Source: Planctomycetota bacterium
GTDB taxonomy: Bacteria > Planctomycetota > UBA1135 > UBA2386
Length of the DNA stretch: 64,000 bases
Direction: 5' to 3'
Assembly (NCBI GenBank): GCA_020848735.1
Contig: JADLHO010000065.1
Coordinates: 1-64,000 of the forward strand
Of the stretch, positions 11,097-44,206 are shown in pieces. Position numbers and translations under genes: made by a program. Under the pieces are notes generated by a model, which worked only from the letters and a program-made list of their open reading frames with translations, had not been told where the DNA came from and did not search any database. How positions within the stretch are numbered: position 1 is the stretch's first letter; every line of letters starts with the position of its first letter.

Positions 11097-11510
11097 ATGA
11101 TCGAAGGCCTGCACCACATCGGCGTGGCCGTCCGCTCCCTGACCGAAGCCCTGCCGCAGTGGACCGCGGGCCTCGGCCTGCGCCTGGAAGGCGTGGAGGA
11201 GGTGCCGACGGAGCGCGTGCGGGTCGCGATCCTCTGGGCGGGGACCACGCGCATCGAACTGCTCGAGCCCACGTCCCCCGAATCGCCGATCGCGAAGTTC
11301 CTCGAGAAGCGCGGCCCCGGCGTGCACCACCTCGCGTTGAAGTGCGGCGACACCGCCGCGGCGATCCGCGTGCTCGTCGATGCCGGCGCCCCCTTGCTCG
11401 ACCAGGCGCCGCGGCGCGGCGCGCACGACACGCAGGTCGCGTTCATCCACCCCAAGTACCTCGGCGGCGTGCTCGCGGAGCTCGTCCAGGATCCGCCGGA
11501 AGCGCACTGA
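11097..11510 (+). CDS. mce: Methylmalonyl-CoA epimerase
   Basis: This 137-residue protein is a single vicinal-oxygen-chelate (glyoxalase) unit pair of normal family length. The expected metal ligands appear as H in LHHIGVAV, E in IELLEP, H in GPGVHHLAL and E in [23 protein letters not shown] is a characteristic epimerase segment. The enzyme interconverts (S)- and (R)-methylmalonyl-CoA between propionyl-CoA carboxylase and the B12-dependent mutase. It heads a cluster with carboxylase genes only 29 bases downstream, which supports the assignment. A mutase gene is not in the window. Confidence 0.93.
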
Positions 11511-11539
11511 CCGAACCGCATCGACCGAATCAGGACTTC

Positions 11540-13090
11540 ATGAAGGACGCCATCGCACGTCTGCAGGAGATGCGCGCGAAGTCGCTCGCGGGCGGCGGTC
11601 CCGCGCGCATCGAAGCGCAGCACCAGAAGGGCAAGCTCACCGCGCGCGAGCGCATCGACCTGCTCGTCGATCCCGGGAGCTTCGTCGAGATCGATCGCTT
11701 CGTCGTGCACCGCTGTCGCGACTTCGGCATGGATGCCGAGTCGAACAAGATCCTCGGCGACGGTGTCGTCTGTGGCTCCGCGAAGGTCGGAGGCCGCCCC
11801 GTCTACCTCTTCAGCCAGGACTTCACCGTCTTCGGCGGCTCGCTGTCGGAGACGCACGCCGCGAAGATCTGCAAGGTGATGGACCTCGCGCTCAAGATGG
11901 GCGTGCCGGTGCTCGGCCTGAACGACTCGGGCGGCGCGCGCATCCAGGAGGGCGTGGTGTCGCTCGGCGGCTACGCCGAGATCTTCCTGCGCAACACGCT
12001 CGCGTCGGGAGTGGTGCCGCAGATCAGCGCGATCCTCGGGCCCTGTGCCGGTGGTGCGGTGTACTCGCCCGCGATCACCGACTTCGTGCTCATGGTCGAA
12101 GGCACGAGCTTCATGCACATCACGGGCCCCGACGTGGTGAAGACGGTCACGCACGAGGACGTCACCTCCGAGGAGCTCGGTGGCGCGCGCGTGCATGCGA
12201 GCAAGAGCGGCGTGGCGCACTTCACGTCGCCCGACGACGCGGCGTGCCTGATGCTCGTCCGCGAGCTGCTCGGCTACCTGCCGCTCAACAACACCGAGGA
12301 CCCGCCGTTCTGCGCGACGAGCGACGACCCGAACCGCGCCGACGAGCAGCTCGATTCGATCGTGCCGCCGTCGAGCGACATGCCGTACGACATGCGCGAG
12401 GTGGTCAAGCGCGTCGTCGACGACGGCCGCTTCCTCGAGGTGCACGCGGCGTATGCGCGCAACCTGATCGTCGGTTTCGCGCGCCTCGGCGGTCGCGTCG
12501 TCGGCATCGTCGGCAACCAGCCGGCCTGGCTCGCCGGCGTGCTCGACATCCATGCGAGCATCAAGGGCGCGCGCTTCATCCGCTTCTGCGATTGCTTCAA
12601 CATCCCGATCGTCACCTTCGAGGACGTGCCGGGTTTCCTCCCGGGCAAGGACCAGGAGCACGACGGGATCATCGTCCACGGTGCGAAGCTGCTCTACGCG
12701 TACTGCGAGGCGACCGTCCCGAAGCTGACGGTCATCACGCGCAAGGCGTACGGCGGCGCCTACGACGTCATGTCGAGCAAGCACATCCGCGGCGACGTGA
12801 ATCTCGCGTGGCCCGGCGCCGAGATCGCGGTGATGGGCGCGGAGGGCGCGGCGAAGATCGTCTTCCGCAAGGAGATCGCCGCGGCGAAGGACCAGAAGGC
12901 CGAGGAGGCGCGCCTCGTCGCCGCCTACAAGGAGCGCTTCAACAACCCGTACCTCGCGGCGGCCCACGGCTACGTCGACGACGTGATCCTGCCGCGCGAG
13001 ACGCGTGCCACCTTGATCCGGGCGCTCGAGCTCACGTCGCGCAAGCGCGAGTCGAACCCGCCGCGCAAGCACGGCAACATCCCGCTCTGA
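11540..13090 (+). CDS. pccB: Acyl-CoA carboxylase carboxyltransferase (beta) subunit, propionyl-CoA type
   Basis: This 516-residue protein starts at ATG 11540 with AGGA a few bases upstream; the long track ORF reads back through the epimerase gene. Carboxyltransferase features include [17 protein letters not shown], the acyl-CoA oxyanion loop [25 protein letters not shown], the second oxyanion region [14 protein letters not shown] and [12 protein letters not shown]. Length and ending ([10 protein letters not shown]) match PccB. It transfers the carboxyl group from carboxybiotin to propionyl-CoA, making methylmalonyl-CoA. Its partners are the next two genes and the epimerase just upstream. Confidence 0.93.
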
Positions 13091-13115
13091 GCGCCCACCG
13101 CACGCGAGGTTCCGC

Positions 13116-14645
13116 ATGACGAGTCCCAACGCGCCGGGTCGCCCCGGTCAGCCGCTCTTCCGCCGCGTGCTCGTCGCCAACCGCGGCGAGATCGCGCTGC
13201 GCGTGATCCGCACCGCGAAGGAGATGGGCATCGAGTCCGTCGCCGTCTACTCCGACGCGGACCGCAACGCGATGCACGTCCGCCGCGCGGACCGCGCGGT
13301 GCGCATCGGTCCGCCGCCGCCGCGGGAGAGCTACCTGCGTGGCGACCTCATCATCGAGGCCGCGCGTGGCGTCGGCGCCGACTGCATCCACCCCGGCTAC
13401 GGTTTCCTCTCGGAGAACGCCGCGTTCTCGCAGCTCTGTCTCGATGCGGGGATCACCTTCCTCGGGCCTTCGCCCCACGCGATCCGCGCGATGGGCGACA
13501 AGGTCGAGGCGCGGCGCGCGGCGAAGGCGGCGAAGGTGCCGCTCGTGCCCGGTCTCGAGGACGACGTGAAGGACGACAGCCTTCTCGCCGCGACGGCCGC
13601 GAAGATCGGCTATCCCGTGATGCTGAAGGCCGCGGCCGGCGGTGGTGGCAAGGGCATCCGCATCGTCCGCGACGAGTCCGGTCTGCTCGACGCCGCGCGC
13701 CTCGCCCGCGCCGAGGCGAAGGGCGCCTTCGGCGACGACCGCATCTACCTCGAGAAGTTCGTGACGCGACCGCGGCACGTCGAGGTGCAGGTGATGGGGG
13801 ATCGCCACGGCAAGGTCGTCGCGTGGGGCGAGCGCGAGTGCTCGGTGCAACGGCGGCACCAGAAGCTCGTCGAGGAGTCGCCGAGCCCCGCGATCGACGC
13901 GTCGCTCCGCAAGGCGATGTGCGAGGCGGCGTGCCGACTCTCGCGCGCCGTCGACTACGTGGGGGCGGGCACCGTGGAGTTCCTCGCCTCGGGAGGTGAG
14001 TACTACTTCCTCGAGATGAACACGCGCCTGCAGGTCGAGCATCCCGTCACGGAGATGCGCTTCGGCGTCGACCTCGTGCGCGAGCAATTCCGGGTCGCCG
14101 CGGGACTTCCGGCGACCGACCCGGGCGAGCCGCGCGGGCATGCGATCGAGATCCGCGTGAACGCGGAGGACCCGGAGACCTGGTTCCCCGCGCTCGGCAC
14201 GGTGCGGCGCCTCGCGACGCCCGGTGGCCCGGGCGTGCGCCTCGACGCCGCGCTCTACCGCGGTCTCGAGGTCACGCCCCACTACGACAGCATGCTCGCG
14301 AAGCTGATCGTCTGGGCCGAGGACCGGCCGGCCGCGATCCAGCGCGCGATCCGTGCGCTGCGCGAGCTGCGCATCGTCGGCGTGACGACCTCGACCTCGG
14401 CGGCCTTGAAGGTGCTGCAGAGCGACGAGTTCCGCGGCGGCGACTACGACACGGGCATCCTCGAGCGCGTCGATCGCAAGCCGTCGGAGCGCGCCATCGA
14501 GCTCGCGAGCCTCGCGGCCGCGGTCGGCAAGCTGCTCGCCTCCGAGCGCATCGGCGAGGAGACGGCCGGCAGCCCCGCGCGTCAGGGCGTGCCGAACTGG
14601 GTGCTCGTCGATCGCATGCGTCGGCTCGGCGGCAGGTTGCATTGA
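13116..14645 (+). CDS. Biotin carboxylase subunit of acyl-CoA carboxylase
   Basis: This 509-residue protein has GAGG 7 bases before its ATG. Biotin carboxylase motifs are LVANRGEIALRVIRTAKE, HPGYGFLSENA, the ATP-grasp glycine loop AAGGGGKGIRIV, the EKFV region, EMNTRLQVEHPVTE and a catalytic RXN-type IEIRVNAEDP. The biotin carrier domain found fused in many PccA proteins is missing here and is encoded separately 34 bases downstream, so this is a split alpha subunit. It carboxylates biotin using ATP and bicarbonate. It could also serve acetyl-CoA carboxylase, but the operon context favours propionyl-CoA. Confidence 0.92.
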   Translation: MTSPNAPGRPGQPLFRRVLVANRGEIALRVIRTAKEMGIESVAVYSDADRNAMHVRRADRAVRIGPPPPRESYLRGDLIIEAARGVGADCIHPGYGFLSENAAFSQLCLDAGITFLGPSPHAIRAMGDKVEARRAAKAAKVPLVPGLEDDVKDDSLLAATAAKIGYPVMLKAAAGGGGKGIRIVRDESGLLDAARLARAEAKGAFGDDRIYLEKFVTRPRHVEVQVMGDRHGKVVAWGERECSVQRRHQKLVEESPSPAIDASLRKAMCEAACRLSRAVDYVGAGTVEFLASGGEYYFLEMNTRLQVEHPVTEMRFGVDLVREQFRVAAGLPATDPGEPRGHAIEIRVNAEDPETWFPALGTVRRLATPGGPGVRLDAALYRGLEVTPHYDSMLAKLIVWAEDRPAAIQRAIRALRELRIVGVTTSTSAALKVLQSDEFRGGDYDTGILERVDRKPSERAIELASLAAAVGKLLASERIGEETAGSPARQGVPNWVLVDRMRRLGGRLH

Positions 14646-14679
14646 GCGTCGTCGTCTCGGACCCACGAGTGAGATCCGC

Positions 14680-15201
14680 ATGAAGTACTGGACCAAGATC
14701 GGGACGCAGGAGCGGAGCTACGAGTTCGTGCACCGCGATCACGTGCTCTCCGCCGTGCGCGACGACGGCAAGCACTTCGAGGTCGATCTCTCGGCGGTCG
14801 GCGACGGCGGCGCCTTCTCGCTGATCGTCGACGGCCGCAGCTACGACTGCGTGCTCGAGCGCGAGAACGGTCGCTTCGTCGTGCAGGTCATCGGCGAGCG
14901 CATCGTCGTCGACGTGCAGGACGACCGCGAGCGCGCGGCCTCGCGGGTCGCCTCGCATCGTGCGGGTGGACGCCGCACGATCGAGGCGGCGATGCCAGGT
15001 GTCGTCGTCGATGTGCGTGTCGCGGTCGGGGACGTCGTCGCCGATGGGGCGACGCTCGTCGTCCTCGAGGCGATGAAGATGCAGAACCCGATCGCGGCCG
15101 AGGGGCACGGCAAGGTCGTGCGCGTGTGCGTCAAGCCGCGCGACGTCGTCGCGGCGGGTGCGGTGCTCGTCGAACTCGACGACGAACACGGAGCGACGTG
15201 A
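14680..15201 (+). CDS. Biotin carboxyl carrier protein of the split carboxylase
   Basis: This 173-residue protein carries a C-terminal biotinyl domain (about 100-170) with the biotinylation motif EAMKMQNPI and the flanking GVVVDVRVAVGDVV loop. The N-terminal 90 residues (KIGTQERSYEFVHRD...) form a beta-rich region like the BT linker domain in PccA, which docks the carrier to the carboxyltransferase. It thus looks like the detached C-terminal third of PccA. It follows the biotin carboxylase directly, and its stop overlaps the GTG start of the next lipoprotein gene. Confidence 0.9.
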   Translation: MKYWTKIGTQERSYEFVHRDHVLSAVRDDGKHFEVDLSAVGDGGAFSLIVDGRSYDCVLERENGRFVVQVIGERIVVDVQDDRERAASRVASHRAGGRRTIEAAMPGVVVDVRVAVGDVVADGATLVVLEAMKMQNPIAAEGHGKVVRVCVKPRDVVAAGAVLVELDDEHGAT

Positions 15202-15845: not shown

Positions 15846-16355
15846 TCAGGCCCCGGCCATCCACGCCGCCTGCTGCTCGCCCTCGTTCGTCAGGTACTCA
15901 CGGCGCAGGCGGAGGCGGAGGAACTCGCGGTAGAGGCGCGAGACGAGCTCGTGCAGGAGGAGGAAGTTCGCGATGCGGTCGCGGCTCCTGTCGGCGGGGC
16001 CTTCGGCCTCCTCGTCGTCGTCGGGGAGGCGCACCGAGCGCAGGCCCATGCAGGCGGCGTCGAGCACGAAGTTCCACTGGAGCTCCCCCTGGGCGAGCAC
16101 GAGCTTGGCACGCCGCAGGCGACGGCCGGCGCGCAGCGCCGCGCGCGCCGAGGAGCTGCGCGAGGGGACGCCCTTGCGCATCGTGTGCTCGGTCTCGTCG
16201 TCGTCGCGGGGTGCGAAGGCGAGGAAGTCGTCGAGCGAGATACCGACGACGTGACCGTCACCGAGGTCGAAGTCGCCGCCCTCGGTCTCGAGGCGGAACC
16301 AGAGCCAGGTGAGGAACTCCTCACCGAGGAAGGCAAAGCTCGTCTGTTCGCTCAT
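15846..16355 (-). CDS. RdgC-like protein, C-terminal half (split gene)
   Basis: This 169-residue protein begins with ATG overlapping the stop of the upstream RdgC-like gene (ATGA), so the two are translated as a pair. FLGEEFLTWLWFRLE near the N-terminus resembles a motif in the C-terminal part of RdgC-like proteins of delta-proteobacteria. The rest alternates charged segments and an Arg/Leu-rich helical tail. Together with the next protein the combined length is about 400 residues, near the size of one RdgC-like chain. A direct role in binding DNA and limiting RecA loading is inferred from this pairing only. Confidence 0.5.
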   Translation of the reverse strand: MSEQTSFAFLGEEFLTWLWFRLETEGGDFDLGDGHVVGISLDDFLAFAPRDDDETEHTMRKGVPSRSSSARAALRAGRRLRRAKLVLAQGELQWNFVLDAACMGLRSVRLPDDDEEAEGPADRSRDRIANFLLLHELVSRLYREFLRLRLRREYLTNEGEQQAAWMAGA

Positions 16356-17053
16356 CCGTTGCCGAGCTCCACGAGTTCGTCGCTGGTGTCGTCGTCGTCG
16401 CCGTCGTCGCGGCCGCTCGCGACGCTGAGAGGCCTGCGCGTCGTCGGCTCGTCCTCACCCTGTCGCGGCCAGCGCACGGGTGAGACCTCGTCGAGGTAGC
16501 GCAGCGCTTCGCGGGAGATCCCGCTCTGCGCAGCGAGCGTGCGCGGCTCCGCTTCGCTCAGGGGCACCCCGAAGCTTCGGATGAAGAGCTTCTGGAACTC
16601 CTCGCGCATCGCCGTGGACGTCGCGAAGAGCAGGAGCAGCTTGCGATCGGGATGCCAGAGCGCGTCGACGAGCTGCACGCTGGGCAGGATGCGCGGCAGG
16701 AGACGCTGCTCGAGCTCCTGGCGGAGCTCCTTGCGCTCGCGCGCCGACATCGGCTTGCCGCGGCTGCGCTCGGCTTCGGTGCGGTGGATCGAGACCCAGA
16801 TCGCCGGGAGCTTCTTCTTGTCGACGCGCACGCGGAGCCAGACGGCGTCGTCGTGGACGAGGTCCTCGACCTCGAAGCTGTCGCCGGTCGGATCACCGGG
16901 TGAGACCCAGCCGATCGACGATTCCTCGGAGGAGGCCGTCTCGATGCTGCGGAAACGCTGGGCGGCGAGCGCCGCAGCGAAGTCCGAGGAGTCGGCCGCC
17001 GGGATCTTCCCGTCGACGAAGTACGCGGTGAACCCGCCGGAGCGTCGGAACAT
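16352..17053 (-). CDS. RdgC-like recombination-associated protein, N-terminal half
   Basis: This is a 233-residue protein. The start GGFTAYFVDGKIP, the GWVSPGD turn, the LPAIWVSIHRTEAE segment, an RGKPMSARERKELRQELEQ helix and LLPRILPSVQL match the order of conserved elements in the N-terminal half of RdgC (GW.PP, then RGRKL..E...LK.E....LLP). E. coli RdgC is about 300 residues; here the chain ends in an acidic Asp-rich tail, and the rest seems to be the overlapping downstream gene. RdgC forms a ring on double-stranded DNA and modulates RecA. The assignment rests on motif order, not on a search. Confidence 0.6.
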   Translation of the reverse strand: MFRRSGGFTAYFVDGKIPAADSSDFAAALAAQRFRSIETASSEESSIGWVSPGDPTGDSFEVEDLVHDDAVWLRVRVDKKKLPAIWVSIHRTEAERSRGKPMSARERKELRQELEQRLLPRILPSVQLVDALWHPDRKLLLLFATSTAMREEFQKLFIRSFGVPLSEAEPRTLAAQSGISREALRYLDEVSPVRWPRQGEDEPTTRRPLSVASGRDDGDDDDTSDELVELGNG

Positions 17054-18459: not shown

Positions 18460-19605
18460 ATGACGGACCAAGCACAACAGCGCCGCGACGAGCCGTCGCC
18501 GGGCCGACGGGCTCCGGAGCCCGAGCCGGGTTCGCGACGACCCCGCACCATCCTGGTGCTGGGCGGCGGTGGCATGCGCGGCTTCGCCCACATCGGCGTC
18601 ATCCGTGCGATCGAGCGCCTCGGGCTCCAGATCGACGAGATCGTCGGCACCAGCATGGGTGCCGTGATGGGGGGGCTCTGCGCCGCGGGTCACGCGAGTG
18701 ACGCCATCGAGTCCGTCGCGACCGAGATCTCGATCAAGGACTACCTCAAGCTCAACCTCGTGAAGTTCCTGGTGCGCGGCTACGGCCACGCCTCGGTCTA
18801 CAAGGGTCAGGCCTTCCGCGACTTCCTCGCCAAGAACCTGCCGTTCTCGACCTTCGACGAACTGCCGCGGCCGTTCTTCTGCAACGCGCTGTCGCTGACG
18901 CGCGGTCACATGCGCTACTTCGGCATGCCGGGCGACGTGCACGTCCCCGTGGCCGACGCGGTGTATGCCTCGGCCTGCCTGCCGGGGGTCTTCGAACCGC
19001 CGAAGATCGACGGCGACTGGTACATCGACGGCGGGATGGCCGAGTGCCTCGCTCTCAAGGTCGCGCACGCCCGAAAGCCTGATGTCGTCATCGCGGTCGA
19101 CCTCACCGCGATCGACCATCACCAGCCGGTGGCGTTCCGCGCCACGTTGCCGCACATCCTCTTCCAGACCTACGCGATCATGGGCAGCGTACTCAACGAG
19201 CACGCACTCCACCGCTACGCCGACGCGAAGGTCGTTCTGATCCGTCCCAAGGTGCACAAGGTCGGCGTGCTCGCACAGCCGGATACGCCCGAGGTCGTCC
19301 GGCTCGGCGAACGCGAGGCGCTCGAGGCGCTGACGACCAACTCGTTGACGCGCTACCTCTGCGATCCGAGCGTCGTCCGTGAGGTCGACCGCACGATCCG
19401 CAAGCCGCGTGACTACGTGCACCTCGACGTCGACCCCTCGCGCTGCATCCACTGCGGCATCTGCGCCGTCACCTGCGCGACCAACGGCTACGCCGATGTG
19501 CCGTTCGGCAGCGTCGTGCGCAAGCTCCACAACTACGAGTGCACACGGGACGCCGCCTGCGAGCGGGCGTGTCCAACCGACGCGATCCGCCTGCACAACC
19601 TCTGA
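18460..19605 (+). CDS. Patatin-like phospholipase fused to a C-terminal ferredoxin domain
   Basis: This 381-residue protein starts at ATG 18460 (an ATG at 18391 is possible). The patatin domain covers about 28-265: oxyanion loop GGGGMRG, nucleophile elbow GTSMG (S65) and the catalytic Asp in DGGMAE (D190), the Ser-Asp dyad of bacterial patatins. Residues 320-381 form a ferredoxin-like tail with CIHCGICAVTC (C329, C332, C335, C339) and CTRDAACERACPTDAI (C361, C367, C371). Seven Cys are present, enough for one [4Fe-4S] plus a three-ligand cluster. Lipid acyl hydrolysis plus electron transfer in one chain is unusual. It is followed by an SDR and a DprE1-like oxidase. Confidence 0.85.
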   Translation: MTDQAQQRRDEPSPGRRAPEPEPGSRRPRTILVLGGGGMRGFAHIGVIRAIERLGLQIDEIVGTSMGAVMGGLCAAGHASDAIESVATEISIKDYLKLNLVKFLVRGYGHASVYKGQAFRDFLAKNLPFSTFDELPRPFFCNALSLTRGHMRYFGMPGDVHVPVADAVYASACLPGVFEPPKIDGDWYIDGGMAECLALKVAHARKPDVVIAVDLTAIDHHQPVAFRATLPHILFQTYAIMGSVLNEHALHRYADAKVVLIRPKVHKVGVLAQPDTPEVVRLGEREALEALTTNSLTRYLCDPSVVREVDRTIRKPRDYVHLDVDPSRCIHCGICAVTCATNGYADVPFGSVVRKLHNYECTRDAACERACPTDAIRLHNL

Positions 19606-19669
19606 TCCCCGCCCGGTCCGGCCTCGCGCTGGCAGCGCCACGCGTCGACGGATAGGAAGCACGGCCTCC

Positions 19670-20422
19670 ATGCCCTCCCGACTGTCTGGAACCGCTGTCG
19701 TCGTCGGTGCGAGCTCGGGCATCGGCGCCGCGCTCGCGATGCGTCTCGCCCACGAGGCTCGCCCGGTCGCCTTGGTTGCGCGCCGGGCCTCCGAGCTCCA
19801 GGGGCTCGTCGCCGCGATCAACACGAAAGTCGGCACGACGCGTGCGCATGCCTTCGTGCAGGACGTCACCGACGCGGCGACGGTGCTCGCCGTGATCGAA
19901 CGAATCGAGCAGACGCTCGGACGGATCGAGGAGCTGCACTACACGGCAGGCGTGATGCCCGACGTGGCGCTCGACGAGTATCCGAGTGACAAGGATGCGG
20001 CCATGCTCGCGGTCAACGCGCTGGGCTGCATGCACTGGTGCAATGCGCTGGTGCCGCTCCTCGTGGAGCGCGGGCGTGGTCACATCGTGGGGGTCACGAG
20101 CGTCGCCGCGGTGCGCGGGCGGATGGATCGTCCGGGCTACAACGCGTCGAAGGCGGCGCAGGATGCGTACCTCGAGGCGCTGCGCAATCGCGTCTGGCGC
20201 CATGGCGTGCTCGTCACCACGGTCCGTTCCGGCCCGGTCCACACGCCGATGACCGAGGGCCTGAAGATCCCGATGCCGATCAGCGCCGAGCGCTGCGCGA
20301 TCGGAATCCTGCGCGCACGCGACCGCCGTCGCGCGATTGCGTATGTGCCGTGGCAGTGGTGGCCGATCATGACGGTGATCCGCGCGATTCCCTCGTTCCT
20401 CTTCCGCAAGATGAAGGTCTGA
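19670..20422 (+). CDS. Short-chain dehydrogenase/reductase, DprE2-like position
   Basis: This 250-residue classical SDR starts at ATG 19670; the track start lies inside the previous gene. The cofactor motif is VVGASSGIGAALA, the strand motif is LHYTAGVM in place of NNAG, the catalytic serine lies in VGVTSVAAVRG, and the active site is YNASKAA. The C-terminus is hydrophobic (WWPIMTVIRAIPSFLF), suggesting membrane association. It sits 4 bases before a DprE1-like oxidase. In actinobacteria DprE1 and the SDR DprE2 together epimerise polyprenyl-phosphoryl ribose to arabinose, so a similar two-step oxidation/reduction is a reasonable inference. Confidence 0.82.
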   Translation: MPSRLSGTAVVVGASSGIGAALAMRLAHEARPVALVARRASELQGLVAAINTKVGTTRAHAFVQDVTDAATVLAVIERIEQTLGRIEELHYTAGVMPDVALDEYPSDKDAAMLAVNALGCMHWCNALVPLLVERGRGHIVGVTSVAAVRGRMDRPGYNASKAAQDAYLEALRNRVWRHGVLVTTVRSGPVHTPMTEGLKIPMPISAERCAIGILRARDRRRAIAYVPWQWWPIMTVIRAIPSFLFRKMKV

Positions 20423-20426
20423 TTCC

Positions 20427-21848
20427 GTGAGCGCTGCGACGTTCCGTCCCGAGCCCGTTCTCGGTTGGGGCATGGCCATTGGCGGCGTGGCGCAGGTCTG
20501 CCGCCCGCGTTCGCTCGACGAACTCGCGTCGATCGTCACCTCGGGCGGCCACGGACCAAAGGGACTGGCGTTGCGGGGCAGCGGCTGCAGCTACGGCGAT
20601 GCGGCGACCAACGTCGGTGCTCGCGTGCTCGAGTTGTCGGCGCTGAATCGCATCCTCGCCTTCGACGCCGAGAAGGGCATCGCCCGCGTCGAGCCTGGCG
20701 TGCGCATCCGCGATCTCTGGCGCCACGCCATCCCGCATGGGTACTGGCCCGCCGTCGTGCCCGGGACGATGCAGGTCTCGATGGGTGGTGCCGCCTCGAT
20801 GAACATCCACGGGAAGAACGCCTTCGCCGTGGGGACCTTCGGCGATCACGTCCGCGGCTTCACACTCCTCACGCCGCGCGGCGAGACGCTGATCTGCGAC
20901 CGCGAGCGCAACTCCGAGGTCTTCCACGCGGCGATCTCGGGCTTCGGCATGCTCGGCGTCTTCACGGAGCTCACGGTCGAGCTCAAGAAGGTGCACAGCG
21001 GTCGCCTGCGCGTGTGGGGGATCCCGATGCGGAGCCTCGAGGACGGAATCGCCATCATCGAGGACCAGCGCCACAAGGCCGACTACCTGGTCGGCTGGTG
21101 CGACCTCTGCGCGAAGGGCACTGCCCTCGGCCGCGGTGTCATGCACCGCGCCGACCAACTCGAGCCCGGCGAGGACGACGAGGGCCTGGCACTCCTGCGA
21201 CCCGAACGGCAGGACGTGCCGGGCACGCTCTTCGGCGTCGTGCCCAAGGGCTGGATCTGGCCGGGCATGTGGTGCGCGTTCCACTTCGGTTTCGTGCCGG
21301 TGGTCAACGCGCTCAAGTACCGCGCCGGCTACCGCGAGGGTCTGCACTCGCCGTACCTGCAGACCCACGGGGCTTTCCACTTCCTGCTCGACTACGTCCC
21401 GCGCTGGCAGTGGATGGTCAAACCGGGTGGGCTGATCCAGTTCCAGCCCTTCGTTCCCGCAAGCGAAGCGCCGCGCGTGCTCCGCAAGGTCGCCGAACTC
21501 GCTCGAGCACGCGGCATCCGGCCGTACCTCGGCGTTCTCAAGCGCCATCGGCCCGATCCCTTCCTCATGACCCACGGCCTCGACGGTTTCTCGATGGCGA
21601 TGGACTTCGGCGTCCCGAAATCGCCGCTGGGCCGCGACCGGCTCTGGCGCCTGACGCACGAGATGGCCGAGATCGTGCTCAGCGCCGGCGGTCGGTTCTA
21701 CTGGGCAAAGGACGGAACCCTCCAATCCTCGTCGTTCGAACGCGTGCATGGCAGCGACGCGGTGCGCAGGTTCAGGGAGCTCAAGGCACGGCTCGACCCC
21801 GAGCGCGTGCTCCAGACCGACCTGTCGCGGCGCCTGATGGGGGACTGA
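20427..21848 (+). CDS. FAD-dependent oxidase, DprE1-like (VAO/PCMH family)
   Basis: This 473-residue protein (GTG start) aligns well by eye with decaprenylphosphoryl-ribose oxidase DprE1: LRGSGCSYGDAATN, VVPGTMQVSMGGA, NIHGKN, TFGDHVRGFTLLTP, an IQFQPFVP strand, and AKDG with K428 at the place of DprE1 K418. The DprE1 active-site-proximal Cys (C387, CVDF) is replaced: here the segment reads MAMDF with Ala391. It likely oxidises C2 of a lipid-linked sugar, handing the keto product to the SDR encoded just upstream. Its natural substrate is not known. The last 68 bases overlap the end of the HNH endonuclease gene on the other strand. Confidence 0.85.
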   Translation: MSAATFRPEPVLGWGMAIGGVAQVCRPRSLDELASIVTSGGHGPKGLALRGSGCSYGDAATNVGARVLELSALNRILAFDAEKGIARVEPGVRIRDLWRHAIPHGYWPAVVPGTMQVSMGGAASMNIHGKNAFAVGTFGDHVRGFTLLTPRGETLICDRERNSEVFHAAISGFGMLGVFTELTVELKKVHSGRLRVWGIPMRSLEDGIAIIEDQRHKADYLVGWCDLCAKGTALGRGVMHRADQLEPGEDDEGLALLRPERQDVPGTLFGVVPKGWIWPGMWCAFHFGFVPVVNALKYRAGYREGLHSPYLQTHGAFHFLLDYVPRWQWMVKPGGLIQFQPFVPASEAPRVLRKVAELARARGIRPYLGVLKRHRPDPFLMTHGLDGFSMAMDFGVPKSPLGRDRLWRLTHEMAEIVLSAGGRFYWAKDGTLQSSSFERVHGSDAVRRFRELKARLDPERVLQTDLSRRLMGD

Positions 21849-23007
21849 GCCCGCCCTCGGCGCCTGTCGACCCCGTCGCGAGTGGCGCGGCGCGTTGCGC
21901 CACCTCGCCAGCGAGACGCGGTCCCCCGAGTGAGCGGCCTCTGGCATCGCGGAACACGAAGCCCGGTTGCCTCCCATTCCGCTTCGTGCAATCGAGCGTC
22001 ACCACGAGGAAGCCCTCGTGCACGAGGCCGTGGCAGCGCACGCACAGCGTGACGAGATTGCCGAGTTCGGTGAGCCCGCCCTTGCTGCGCCACTGGACGT
22101 GATGCGCGTGCAGGCCTCGGCGGCCCTTGCAATGCACACAGGCGTGGCCATCGCGCGACAGCACTCTGGCGCGCAGCTTCGGCGGAGTCTCGGCATCACT
22201 CGTGATTCCCTCGGCCTTCGCCGGGTGGATTGGTTCCTCTCCATCCTCGCCGACGACCTTCTCGTCGCGGACCAGGACCTGGAACGCTCCGCCCTTGATG
22301 GCCTTTCGCCCCGGCACGTTCCCTTCAGCGTCGCTCGCCAGCACGAGCCTCAGCATCTCCTCGAGGATGTCGAGATCGCGGATCCCGGGGCCGCCTCCCA
22401 GCTCAGCGCGCAGCTTGCTGCGCGCGTTCTCCCACATCTGCCAGCGCGTGGCATCGAGTTCGAGACGCAGAGTGAAGCGCGCGTGCGGTAGCCCGCTCCC
22501 CTCCGGTGGCACCTCGCCAGCGCGAGCCCGCATGGTCAGCCGTTCGAGTTCGTCCTGCGACACGACCTGCGCCCGTTCCAGCCATGCTCCTTCCGTCTGC
22601 GGCGTGGCCACATCGCAGAGCCGACGCACTCGCGACCAGCAGATCCGGCTCCCGGCAAAGGCCTCGTCGATCGCACGCAGTTCCCTGAGGCGCAACCCCG
22701 CATGGAGCAGCTCCCGCGCCTTCCGCCGCGACATCCCCAACGCCCGCACCGCGTATGCGACCGTCGTCGGAAACCCGAGACTCTGGTGCAGCCCGCGCTC
22801 GTGCAGGTCCGCGAGGTAGAAGGCCGTCGTCCGATTGCCGAGGTCCGCGGTTCGGCAGCTTCGCCGCAACCGCACGTCGATCTCGTCAGCACCCAGCCCG
22901 TCCACGAGCTGGAACCCGGAGTCGTCCGCCGCCTCTGCCGTCGCCGCGCGCTCGAACGCGCCGTTGTCCGTGCTCGCGAACCTGCCCATGTCGACCTCGA
23001 CCTCCAT
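21781..23007 (-). CDS. HNH endonuclease domain protein (13E12/DUF222-like)
   Basis: This 408-residue protein starts at ATG 23007 with AAGGA just upstream; ATG 22989 is an alternative, and the track start at 23337 runs through the divergent gene. Residues about 60-250 are helical and Arg/Glu-rich, like the DUF222/13E12 repeat region. The HNH nuclease lies near about 285-345: LSRDGHACVHC, LHAHHVQWRSKGG, LGNLVTLCVRCHGLVHEG, including two zinc-binding CxxC pairs and the conserved N and H. Such genes are often mobile or repeated, with poorly known biology. The 3' end overlaps the DprE1-like gene by 68 bases, tail to tail. Confidence 0.82.
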   Translation of the reverse strand: MEVEVDMGRFASTDNGAFERAATAEAADDSGFQLVDGLGADEIDVRLRRSCRTADLGNRTTAFYLADLHERGLHQSLGFPTTVAYAVRALGMSRRKARELLHAGLRLRELRAIDEAFAGSRICWSRVRRLCDVATPQTEGAWLERAQVVSQDELERLTMRARAGEVPPEGSGLPHARFTLRLELDATRWQMWENARSKLRAELGGGPGIRDLDILEEMLRLVLASDAEGNVPGRKAIKGGAFQVLVRDEKVVGEDGEEPIHPAKAEGITSDAETPPKLRARVLSRDGHACVHCKGRRGLHAHHVQWRSKGGLTELGNLVTLCVRCHGLVHEGFLVVTLDCTKRNGRQPGFVFRDARGRSLGGPRLAGEVAQRAAPLATGSTGAEGGLSPPSGAATGRSGARARGRAVP

Positions 23008-40132: not shown

Positions 40133-40651
40133 ATGGATAGGCGCAAGACGCTCGGCGAGTTCCGAGTGAACGGCGAGCGGCGTGAGGTGGCCTACGAGCC
40201 GCACCGCACGCTCCTCGAGGTGCTCCGTGAGGACCTCGGTCTCACGGGCACGAAGCACGGCTGCGAGCTCGGCGAATGCGGGGCCTGCACCGTGCTCATC
40301 GACGGCACCCCGGTGCTCTCCTGCCTCACCCTCGCCCAGGAGGTCGAGGACCGCCCGATCGAGACGATCGAAGGCATGGCCGACAAGGGCGAGCTGCACC
40401 CGCTGCAGGATTTCTCCGCGGAGCTCGGGGCCTCGCAGTGCGGCTACTGCTCGGCGGGCTTCATGCTCGCGGCGAAGGCGCTGCTCGCGGCGAACCCGGC
40501 GCCGACGCGCGACGAGATCCGCGCGGCGCTCGCGGGCAACCTCTGCCGCTGCACCGGCTACGTGAAGATCTTCGAGGCCGTCGAGCTCGCCGCGGCGAAG
40601 CAGCGCGGCGAGCCCTGCACGCCGAGCCGGGAGTGCACGCATGGCCACTGA
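40133..40651 (+). CDS. hcrC: [2Fe-2S] subunit of a 4-hydroxybenzoyl-CoA reductase-type molybdoenzyme
   Basis: This 172-residue protein has the plant-type [2Fe-2S] site GCELGECGACTVLIDG with a further Cys in LSCLTLAQE, and the second helical [2Fe-2S] domain with CGYCSAGFML and NLCRCTGYVKIFEAVE. This is the small subunit of xanthine oxidase family enzymes. The stop lies 11 bases inside the next gene (molybdenum subunit), so the two are coupled. Assignment to 4-hydroxybenzoyl-CoA reductase depends on the third gene of the operon, which has the special cluster loop. Confidence 0.85.
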   Translation: MDRRKTLGEFRVNGERREVAYEPHRTLLEVLREDLGLTGTKHGCELGECGACTVLIDGTPVLSCLTLAQEVEDRPIETIEGMADKGELHPLQDFSAELGASQCGYCSAGFMLAAKALLAANPAPTRDEIRAALAGNLCRCTGYVKIFEAVELAAAKQRGEPCTPSRECTHGH

Positions 40652-43178
40652 GGACAGGGGACCGGCGCCGATCGAGCGGCCCGAGGGCAAGCACCTCCAC
40701 GCCGTGCCGGACGATCGCCTCGCGGTGGTCGGCAAGCCCTGGCGCAAGATCGACGCGCGCGCGCGCGTGACCGGTCAGACGCGCTACGCCGACGACCTGA
40801 GCGCGCCGCGCATGGCGTTCTGCAAGCTGCTCCGCAGCACGCAGGCACACGCGCGCATCGTGCGGATCGACACGAGCGCGGCCGAGGCGATGCCGGGGGT
40901 CTACGCGGTGCTCGTCGGCAAGGAGCTGCCGATCGCCTTCGGCATCCTCCCCGTGAGCCAGGACGAGCACACGCTCTGCATCGAGAAGGTGCGCTTCGTC
41001 GGCGATCCCGTCGCGGCCGTCGCCGCGGTCGACGAGGACACGGCCTGGGAGGCGTGTCGGCGCATCGTCGTGGAGTACGCGCCGCTGCCGGTGGTGTCCG
41101 ACGTCTTCGAGTCGGCGGCGACGGATCCGCAGGCGCCCGCCGAGCACCGCATCCACGACTACGGCCGCGTCGGCAACTTCCACCGCCAGGAGAACCTCGA
41201 GTTCGGCGACCTCGCGCAGGGCTTCGCCGAGAGCGACCTGGTCCGCGAGGACTACTTCTTCTTCGAGGGGAACACGCACCTCCCGATGGAGGAGCACGCG
41301 ACGCTCGCGCAGTTCGATCCCGACGGCAAGCTCTGCGTGCAGTCGAGCACGCAGACGCCGCACTACCTGCACCGCGCGCTCGCGAAGGTGCTGGCCGAGC
41401 ACGTTCCCGCGCACAAGATCCGCGTGATCGCGTGTCCGAACGGCGGCGGCTTCGGCGGCAAGAGCGATCCGTTCAGCCACGAGATCGCGGTCGCGATGCT
41501 GTCGATCAAGACGGGTCGGCCCGTCAAGATCACGCTGACGCGCGAGGAGGTCTTCTACACGCACCGCGGGCGGCACCCGGTGCTCATGCGCTCGCGGATC
41601 GGGGTGTCGCGCAGCGGACGCATCAAGGCGCTCGACTTCGAGTCGCACCTCGATGGGGGCTCGTACGGCAGCTATGGCACCGCGAGCACCTTCTACACGG
41701 GTGCCCTGCAGTGCGTGACGTACCAGGTCGAGAACTACTGGTTCCGCGGCGCGCGCCACTTCACGAACAAGGCGCCCTGCGGGCCGAAGCGCGGCCATGG
41801 CACGCCGCAGCCGCGCTTCGCGCTCGAGGTGCAGCTCGACAAGCTCGCGGTCGAGCTCGGACTCGATCCGGTGCGCATCCGCCGCGACAACCTCACCGAG
41901 GCCAACTCGCTGACCGCGAACTGGATGCGCATCGGCACGCAGTCGCTGCGGCAGTGCATCGACAAGGTCGTCGATGGCTCGCGCTTCCTCGAGCGCTGGC
42001 AGAAGCAGCCCTACGGCAAGGGGCTCGGCCTCGCGTGCTCGAGCTACCTCTCGGGCGCGGGCCTGCCCATCTACTGGAACGCGCTGCCGCACTCCGGCGT
42101 GCAGCTCAAGCTCGACCGCAGCGGGCTCGTCACCGTGTTCTGCGGCAGCACCGACATCGGGCAGGGCAGCAACTCGATCCTCGCCTACGTGGTCGGCGAG
42201 GTGCTCGGGCTCGAGCCGCAGGATCTGCGCGTCGTGACGTCCGATACGGATCTCACGCCCGTCGACCTCGGCAGCTACAGCTCGCGCGTGACCCTCATGA
42301 CGGGCAACGCCGCGCTCCAGGCCGCCGAGCGCGCGCGCGATCTGATCGTGCCGCACGTCGCCGACAAGCTCGGCGTCCCGCGCAACCGCATCGGCTTCGC
42401 CAAGGGCCGCGTCTTCGACGTGGGGGACCCCGACCGCGGCATGCCCTTCGCCGATGCGGTCCAGCTCGCCGAGAGCAAGCTCGGCACGCTCGGCACGACG
42501 GGCTCGTACCGGCCGCCGAAGTCCCCGGCGCGCTACAAGGGCGGCGGCGTCGGTCCGAGCGCGAACTACTCGTACACCGCGGCGGTCGTGGAGGTCGACG
42601 TCGATCCCGAGACGGGCATCTACAAGGTGCCGCGCGTGTGGGTCGCGCACGACATCGGTCGCTCGATCAATCCGTGCCTCGTGATGGGGCAGGTCGAGGG
42701 TTCGGTCTACATGGGTCTCGGCGAGGCGATGATGGAGGAGATGAGCTATCGCCCGGATCGCTTCGGCGTGCACAAGATCCCGTCGATGCTCGACTACAAG
42801 TCGCTCACCTCGATGGAGATGCCCGAGGTCACCACCTGGCTCGTCGGCGATCCCGATCCGAACGGGCCCTTCGGTGCGAAGGAGGCCGGGCAGGGCCCGC
42901 TCCTGCCGATGATGCCTGCGGTCGCCAACGCGATCTTCGACGCGGTCGGCGTGCGCGTGGACGAGGTGCCCGTGACCCCCGAGAAGGTCTTCGCGGCGAT
43001 GGAGCTCGCCCGCAAGGGCAAGGACCCGCGCGTGGGACCGACGCGGACGCCACCCGTCGAGTGGCCGGAGGCGCGGCGCGTGCGCACGCCCTGGCAGGGC
43101 GGCACGGGCCTCGAGATCGAGCGCGAGCAGGAGGAACTCGCCGCGTCGCGGGGCAACGGCCCGAAGGGAGGTGCGTGA
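40641..43178 (+). CDS. hcrA: Molybdopterin-binding subunit of a 4-hydroxybenzoyl-CoA reductase-type enzyme
   Basis: This 845-residue protein has the aldehyde oxidase/xanthine dehydrogenase a/b hammerhead domain (about 30-150), then molybdopterin domains. Visible motifs are the cofactor loop CPNGGGFGGKSDPFSHE, KAPCGPKRGHGTPQPRFALE, GSTDIGQGSNS and, near the end, FGAKEAGQGPLLPMMPAVANAI with the Glu that acts as base in this family. The RP-rich tail after about 800 is variable. It should transfer electrons through the [2Fe-2S] and FAD subunits to or from a CoA-bound aromatic ring. Downstream overlap by one base (TGATG) with the FAD subunit gene. Confidence 0.87.
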   Translation: MATEDRGPAPIERPEGKHLHAVPDDRLAVVGKPWRKIDARARVTGQTRYADDLSAPRMAFCKLLRSTQAHARIVRIDTSAAEAMPGVYAVLVGKELPIAFGILPVSQDEHTLCIEKVRFVGDPVAAVAAVDEDTAWEACRRIVVEYAPLPVVSDVFESAATDPQAPAEHRIHDYGRVGNFHRQENLEFGDLAQGFAESDLVREDYFFFEGNTHLPMEEHATLAQFDPDGKLCVQSSTQTPHYLHRALAKVLAEHVPAHKIRVIACPNGGGFGGKSDPFSHEIAVAMLSIKTGRPVKITLTREEVFYTHRGRHPVLMRSRIGVSRSGRIKALDFESHLDGGSYGSYGTASTFYTGALQCVTYQVENYWFRGARHFTNKAPCGPKRGHGTPQPRFALEVQLDKLAVELGLDPVRIRRDNLTEANSLTANWMRIGTQSLRQCIDKVVDGSRFLERWQKQPYGKGLGLACSSYLSGAGLPIYWNALPHSGVQLKLDRSGLVTVFCGSTDIGQGSNSILAYVVGEVLGLEPQDLRVVTSDTDLTPVDLGSYSSRVTLMTGNAALQAAERARDLIVPHVADKLGVPRNRIGFAKGRVFDVGDPDRGMPFADAVQLAESKLGTLGTTGSYRPPKSPARYKGGGVGPSANYSYTAAVVEVDVDPETGIYKVPRVWVAHDIGRSINPCLVMGQVEGSVYMGLGEAMMEEMSYRPDRFGVHKIPSMLDYKSLTSMEMPEVTTWLVGDPDPNGPFGAKEAGQGPLLPMMPAVANAIFDAVGVRVDEVPVTPEKVFAAMELARKGKDPRVGPTRTPPVEWPEARRVRTPWQGGTGLEIEREQEELAASRGNGPKGGA

Positions 43179-44206
43179 TGCTGAGGCTGCCGAAGTTCAG
43201 CTATCACCGCCCGACGAGCGCCGCCGAGGCCCAGCGCATCGCGGCGGAGCACGGTCCCGATGCGCGCTTCGTCGCCGGGGGCACCGACCTCTACCCGAAC
43301 ATGAAGCGCCGCGTGCAGCGGCCGGGTCACGTCGTGGCGCTCTCGCAGTGCGCGGAGCTGCGCGGTGTCCGGGGCGACGCGCGGCAGGGGATCACCCTCG
43401 GCGCGATGACGACGCTCGCCGCGATCGAGCGCGATGCCCTGCTGCGCGCGCAGTACCCCGCGTTCGTGCACGCCGCATCGGTGGTGTCGACGCCGCTGCT
43501 GCGCAACATGGGCACGATCGGCGGCAACCTGCTGCTCGACACGCGCTGCAACTACTACGACCAGAGCCACGAGTGGCGCGAAGCGATCCAGTTCTGCAAG
43601 AAGTGCGACGGCACGGTGTGCTGGGTCGCGCCCTCGAGCCCGCGGTGCTGGGCCGTGCAGTCGAGCGACACCGTGCCGCTGCTCTGCGCGATCGGCGCCG
43701 AGGTCAGCCTGCTCTCGGGCGACGGCGAGCGCCGCGTGCCCCTGCGTGAGCTGTACCGCGACGACGGCATCGAGTACCTCAGCAAGCGCAGGGAGGAACT
43801 GCTGACCGCGTTGCACCTCCCGGCGAACGACGGCTGGCGCGCGTCGTACCGCAAGCTGCGCCGCCGCGGCTCCTTCGACTTCCCGGTGCTCGGCGTCGGC
43901 GCGTGCCTGCGGCTCGAGGGCGATCGCGTCGTCGAGGCGGACCTGCGCATCGGCGGCGCCGGCTCCTGGCCGATCCCGGCCACGCGCACGGTCGAGATGC
44001 TCCGGGGCGCGGAGCTGCGCTACGGCGATCCGGCGAGCGACGAGCTGATCCGCGCCGCCGCGCAGGAGGCCTACAAGCCGACCCGCGCGATGGACAACAC
44101 GGACCTCGACGCACACTGGCGCAAGAAGATGGCGCCGGTCTTCGTCGCCCGCGCGATCCGCGATTGCCTGCCCGGGGCACCCGAGCGCATCGACGAGCGC
44201 GAATGA
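43178..44206 (+). CDS. hcrB: FAD-binding subunit with extra [4Fe-4S] loop, HcrB-like
   Basis: This 342-residue protein has a good ribosome site (AGGGAGG) before ATG 43178. FAD-binding motifs are FVAGGTDLYPNMK, TIGGNLLLDTRC and a C-terminal CO-dehydrogenase flavoprotein domain. An insertion of about 40 residues follows TRC: Cys in RCNYYDQS, FCKKC, TVCWVAP and PRCWAVQSSD. This Cys-rich loop is diagnostic for the beta subunit of 4-hydroxybenzoyl-CoA reductase, where it binds a [4Fe-4S] cluster used for low-potential ring dehydroxylation. Other xanthine oxidase enzymes lack it. The stop overlaps the following SGNH gene (ATGA). Confidence 0.88.
   Translation: MLRLPKFSYHRPTSAAEAQRIAAEHGPDARFVAGGTDLYPNMKRRVQRPGHVVALSQCAELRGVRGDARQGITLGAMTTLAAIERDALLRAQYPAFVHAASVVSTPLLRNMGTIGGNLLLDTRCNYYDQSHEWREAIQFCKKCDGTVCWVAPSSPRCWAVQSSDTVPLLCAIGAEVSLLSGDGERRVPLRELYRDDGIEYLSKRREELLTALHLPANDGWRASYRKLRRRGSFDFPVLGVGACLRLEGDRVVEADLRIGGAGSWPIPATRTVEMLRGAELRYGDPASDELIRAAAQEAYKPTRAMDNTDLDAHWRKKMAPVFVARAIRDCLPGAPERIDERE

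Follow-up and report, generated by a model that had tools for sequence, protein, structure and literature searches.

The window, a stretch of 64,000 nucleotides from contig JADLHO010000065.1 of a Planctomycetota bacterium, encodes a patatin-ferredoxin fusion protein of 381 aa (18460-19605, +, ATG start). It is followed on the same strand by the genes for a short-chain dehydrogenase/reductase (SDR) of 250 aa (19670-20422, +, ATG start) and its partner, a DprE1-like flavin adenine dinucleotide (FAD) oxidase of 473 aa (20427-21848, +, GTG start). The stop codon of the SDR gene (TGA, 20420-20422) is followed by TTCC and then by the GTG of the oxidase gene, so the two genes are exactly 4 bases apart, as stated in an earlier note on this DNA. 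A codon-usage gene caller also picked all three genes, with a later start for the oxidase. Pfam searches assigned Patatin and Fer4 to the fusion, adh_short to the SDR, and FAD_binding_4 to the oxidase.

The fusion protein contains a patatin domain at approximately residues 30-195, with a core extending to about residue 295, and a dicluster ferredoxin domain at residues 319-381 (19414-19602, +). The window protein scored 123.1 bits against Patatin PF01734 (cut-off 27.7, E 2e-35) and 35.5 bits against Fer4 PF00037 (cut-off 21.1, E 7e-9); the dicluster model Fer4_21 gave 27.9 bits, under its cut-off of 35. A scan of 85,462 species, which recovers only relatives of this fusion and not unrelated patatin-ferredoxin fusions, had 80 loci as its best matches, of which nearly all extend to the C-terminus. 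The window protein and 79 of the scan loci, 40-90% identical to it, were aligned, and all 80 sequences had both a Patatin match and a dicluster Fer4_21 match (E up to 1e-3). The Ser-Asp dyad was intact, with S65 in the GTSMG nucleophile elbow (codon 18652-18654, +) and D190 in the DGG motif (codon 19027-19029, +). Both residues were invariant in the 80 sequences, and the Gly-rich oxyanion loop G36-G41 was nearly invariant. Judged from its sequence, the patatin half is most likely a lipid acyl hydrolase.

The ferredoxin domain carries two motifs, C329-x2-C332-x2-C335-x3-C339 and C361-x2-D364-x2-C367-x3-C371-P. There are seven Cys instead of the eight of an all-Cys dicluster domain. The eighth place, that of the second Cys in the second motif, is occupied by Asp364 with the other Cys spacing intact, as in Asp-ligated CxxDxxC sites. 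All seven of these Cys (C329, C332, C335, C339, C361, C367, and C371) and D364 were invariant in the 80-row alignment, as was C141 of the catalytic core, while the remaining Cys were variable. C361 sits in one of the two seed patterns of the scan, so its invariance is partly a product of selection; a seed-free search of the phylum, aligned separately, agreed on C361 and on the other invariant residues. The mean majority identity was 0.74 in the ferredoxin domain versus 0.68 in the catalytic core. The combination of CxxCxxCxxxC and CxxDxxCxxxCP is the ligand pattern of dicluster and Pyrococcus furiosus Asp-ligated ferredoxins. The P. furiosus protein has just one cluster; in the window, the domain is fused to a lipid hydrolase, and its cluster content is predicted from the sequence. 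The CxxDxxC(x)nCP motif of the P. furiosus ferredoxin binds an Asp-ligated cluster that is [3Fe-4S] as isolated in air and has an altered potential (PMC6237146). Because the seven Cys and D364 are invariant, the pattern suggests that the fusion may bind one normal all-Cys [4Fe-4S] cluster and hold a second at a Cys3-Asp site like that of the Pyrococcus ferredoxin.

An AlphaFold model built from the 80 sequences reached a predicted local distance difference test score of 85.4 overall and of about 90 over the ferredoxin domain (320-379); it was used in place of an earlier model from 23 sequences, in which the ferredoxin half was poor. With the catalytic half of the model, Foldseek returned PlpD of Pseudomonas aeruginosa as the best match (template modelling score 0.85 by target length, E 2.5e-21), and ferredoxin-type entries were matched at weak E-values only. 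By sequence, too, PlpD was the best match among solved structures (E 3.5e-26). PlpD and the RssA-type patatins share the patatin fold and the Ser-Asp dyad with the fusion, but they have no ferredoxin domain; the partner domain of PlpD is an outer-membrane barrel, and the RssA model gave 84 bits on the fusion against a cut-off of 272. The next best folds were the CapV/CapE phospholipases of the cyclic-oligonucleotide-based anti-phage signalling system (CBASS), patatin-fold enzymes whose activity is regulated, in their case by cyclic nucleotides. Identity as a CBASS or defence lipase was rejected, as the CBASS lipase model scored 41 bits against a cut-off of 200.

When the window protein was searched against 392 genomes of the phylum, the matches in 22 further genomes, all of the same order (close family f1 and sister family f2), extended through the final residue, 381. 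In other families, the matches ended at residues 295-314, ahead of the ferredoxin part, which was lacking in 3/3 other-family relatives with readable ends. The 80 loci of the species-wide scan came from records titled Planctomycetota, a few of them under other planctomycete names, or from metagenome-assembled genomes labelled simply 'bacterium', and the fusion was present in the finished genomes Pla86 (CP036296.1), Pla163 (CP036290.1), and Poly30 (CP036434.1). The viral contigs searched contained no relative of the fusion, and a viral origin was rejected on this ground. Since the Cys of the domain and the dyad are invariant among 80 sequences that are 40-90% identical to the window protein, the fusion is not a product of chance. 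No description of a patatin-ferredoxin fusion was found in the open-access literature searched. Patatins occur with many partner domains; the fusion adds a new architecture to a known enzyme family and is conserved in one order. The claims of the earlier note that a patatin with an intact Ser-Asp dyad is joined here to a seven-Cys iron-sulfur domain, and that such a fusion is unusual, were borne out, and the architecture extends well beyond the genome in which it was first read.

Gene neighbourhoods were compared by gene calls and clustering in 20 genomes and by homology across the 80 loci. Upstream of the fusion in relatives lies a divergent group of genes for an AMP-dependent coenzyme A (CoA) ligase of the PaaK/FlxY type, a thiolase, and a FadB/FadJ-type multifunctional protein, named by Pfam/NCBIfam. 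Among loci with at least 1 kb upstream, at least one of the CoA ligase, thiolase, and FadB genes was present in 19/20 close-family and 44/56 sister-family loci. Five sister-family loci without them had an acyl-CoA carboxylase block upstream instead. A block of the same kind lies in the window at 11097-15201 (+), where a methylmalonyl-CoA epimerase-like gene is accompanied by acyl-CoA (propionyl-CoA type) carboxylase genes (beta, biotin carboxylase, and biotin carrier); the epimerase-like and beta genes were named by reading of their sequences. The conserved partner of the fusion is the divergent beta-oxidation operon.

We propose that the patatin half would use Ser65/Asp190 to cleave acyl chains from a lipid, its putative substrate, and that the freed acids would most likely enter beta-oxidation, because the gene is divergent from those of the CoA ligase, thiolase, and FadB/FadJ in most relatives. 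The ferredoxin half would bind one [4Fe-4S] cluster through Cys alone and another through three Cys and Asp364; sites of the latter kind interconvert between [3Fe-4S] and [4Fe-4S]. The role of this half would most likely be to adjust the hydrolase, or to localise it, in response to the redox, oxygen, or iron state. The reaction itself, ester hydrolysis, requires no electrons, and no recurring redox partner was recognised beside the gene; control or localisation is therefore moderately preferred to electron transfer. A narrower form of this proposal, in which the interconvertible Cys3-Asp site turns the patatin on and off as a redox- or oxygen-gated lipase, is put forward only tentatively. If true, it would mean that lipid breakdown is coupled to redox state within a single polypeptide in one planctomycete order. 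That an electron-independent enzyme keeps an iron-sulfur domain across much of an order suggests redox control, or else localisation, of lipid turnover, and the proposal is directly testable, as the isolates with finished genomes, Pla86, Pla163, and Poly30, carry the fusion.

The nearest sequences to the ferredoxin domain are electron-transfer modules, namely formylmethanofuran dehydrogenase subunit F, NuoI, and hydrogenase-type subunits. This argues for a different role, in which the ferredoxin half carries electrons to or from a redox enzyme whose substrate is the lipid or the released acyl chain, and hydrolysis serves only to present that substrate; the partner could be, for instance, a protein resembling aldehyde:ferredoxin oxidoreductase, or a redox step on acyl-CoA could be served. 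An aldehyde ferredoxin oxidoreductase-like gene was indeed present within 8 kb of the fusion in 13/80 loci. However, it was not seen in the vicinity in the remaining 67 loci, some of which are truncated, nor directly next to the fusion in the window, and its match to aldehyde ferredoxin oxidoreductase models was weak. Furthermore, no ferredoxin reductase or acyl-CoA dehydrogenase recurred among the typed neighbour clusters, and we regard an electron carrier as doubtful. The aldehyde ferredoxin oxidoreductase-like genes (for example L044:11537-13531 and L172:10503-12593) often lie between genes for an M50 peptidase-like membrane protein, recognised by eye, and for glycosyltransferase family 9.

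The independence of ester hydrolysis from electrons would equally suit a domain that is structural only, whose clusters or other metal hold the C-terminus without a redox or regulatory role. The patatin relatives in other planctomycete families are without the domain, indicating that the domain is dispensable for the catalytic core. Against such a role, the seven Cys and D364 are invariant in full dicluster spacing and the domain is more conserved than the core, and an invariant Asp ligand would be odd at a purely structural site. We therefore consider a structural role unlikely, and control or localisation of the hydrolase remains the preferred function of the domain.

The earlier note had also described the two downstream genes as DprE2-like and DprE1-like. 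The best solved relative of the oxidase was DprE1 (E 3e-53 over residues 5-470), and its FAD_binding_4 domain and conserved IHGKN and AKD stretches aligned to DprE1, with H128, K130, and K428 kept in 21/21. Against the NCBIfam DprE1 equivalog, it scored 267 bits over residues 10-470 and did not reach the cut-off of 500. Ala391 lies near the position of the Cys in the N-I-C-V-D-F stretch of Mycobacterium tuberculosis DprE1. The SDR gave 91 bits against the DprE2 NCBIfam model (cut-off 250), and the generic SDR model PRK07102 scored higher, at 168.5, so that the DprE2-like label rests mainly on the partner oxidase. With both scores under their cut-offs, the pair was not filed as DprE1/DprE2 proper.

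The oxidase was present in 24/24 genomes tested. In 19/20 fetched regions, the SDR gene lay upstream within about 140 bases of it on the same strand, the 20th region being truncated where its contig ends. Of the 24 genomes, 22 had a decaprenyl-phosphate phosphoribosyltransferase (NF008977, confirmed on L192), the enzyme to be expected alongside a DprE1/DprE2 route to polyprenyl-phospho-arabinofuranose; at the same threshold of 1e-20, only 1/14 control genomes had it, that of Corynebacterium glutamicum. Such a route has also been proposed for Gram-negative glycans (PMC11127046). The present pair resembles DprE1/DprE2 and the homologues in these pentofuranose pathways in its full-length DprE1 match, its adjacent SDR, and, in 22/24 genomes, the accompanying phosphoribosyltransferase. 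Because the pair co-occurs with the phosphoribosyltransferase in most of the genomes, it most likely represents the known polyprenyl-phospho-arabinose route, which is putative for the window's own genome. Together, the two proteins would carry out a two-step 2-epimerisation, separate from the fusion, to yield a polyprenyl-phospho-pentofuranose donor. The idea in the earlier note that they act on a polyprenyl-linked sugar is accordingly plausible for a pentose, though not its joining of this step with the patatin. In addition, the window's own genome contains a UbiA-family gene (L103:1360-2427) that adjoins sugar transferase-like genes. It was rejected as the phosphoribosyltransferase, as NCBIfam gave no match at 1e-5 and the PDB none that was credible.

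The three genes had been read in the earlier note as one pathway of lipid or glycan remodelling. On such a reading, the patatin would release or trim a sugar linked to a polyprenyl or a lipid, which the SDR/DprE1 pair would then epimerise. In the window, its near-identical sister L108, and L127, the genes are tightly packed on the same strand, and L127 has all three together with the beta-oxidation operon. A looser synteny on the same strand was observed in L110 and L111, where the pair lies 2.5-2.8 kb from the fusion, and in G383, where the distance is 10.7 kb. However, only the window, L108, and L127 have the pair immediately next to the fusion, with a gap of less than 90 bases, and in the remaining close-family loci, those beyond L110, L111, and G383, it was out of reach. 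An SDR gene was found within 2.5 kb of the patatin in 2/18 testable close-family loci, one of which is the sister L108, and in 0/48 sister-family loci. In the finished genomes of Pla86 and Pla163, the pair and the fusion are 1.76 Mb and 1.83 Mb apart, respectively, and the close relative G054 has the pair with no match to the fusion at 1e-40. On these neighbourhoods, the three-gene cassette was rejected as a conserved unit, and the patatin-4Fe-4S architecture does not always sit beside DprE1/DprE2 homologues. A single three-gene pathway seems quite improbable to us. Instead, the pair would have come to lie beside the lipase in the window mainly through loss or rearrangement of intervening genes.

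Overall, we give roughly an even chance to an acyl hydrolase that feeds beta-oxidation and bears a redox-responsive iron-sulfur module, with the SDR/DprE1 pair as a separate system. Several observations weigh against it. The beta-oxidation operon is absent beside the fusion in the window and in the 90% identical sister L108, so the link cannot be strictly local, and the Poly30-type sub-lineage is also without beta-oxidation neighbours. In the window and L108, peptidyl-prolyl isomerase-, RdgC-, and c42-type genes adjoin the fusion; in relatives these come beyond the beta-oxidation genes, which is the pattern expected after loss or movement of the operon in the window's lineage. Contig C207 (L188) of the window's own genome carries a thiolase and FadB pair whose type is that of the sister family (64% and 57% identity) and not that of the genome's own family, and the contig ends just upstream of it; the 6.9% contamination of the draft could explain this pair. 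The fusion is also missing from G054, as noted above. The SDR/DprE1 pair follows downstream of the fusion on the same strand within 11 kb in five close-family genomes, which leaves room for a loose link between the two in the close family. Finally, the phosphoribosyltransferase had no match at 1e-20 in the window's own genome, a draft that is 89% complete, or in G383, also a draft.

Further genes were noted around the three. At 16352-17053 (-), the window encodes a short RdgC-like protein (PF04381, 49 bits), which is paired with a 169-aa protein of no recognised type; the order of this pair is kept in relatives. A gene at 21781-23007 (-) overlaps the 3' end of the oxidase gene by 68 bases in antisense, and an HNH-like stretch (CVHCKGRRGLHAHHVQWRSKGG) was recognised in it by eye. 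Three adjacent genes at 40133-44206 (+) appear by eye to encode the small Fe-S, large, and FAD subunits of a molybdenum hydroxylase. Two of these three genes are also found downstream of the group of SDR/DprE1 and DEAD helicase genes in G383, suggesting an old common gene order.

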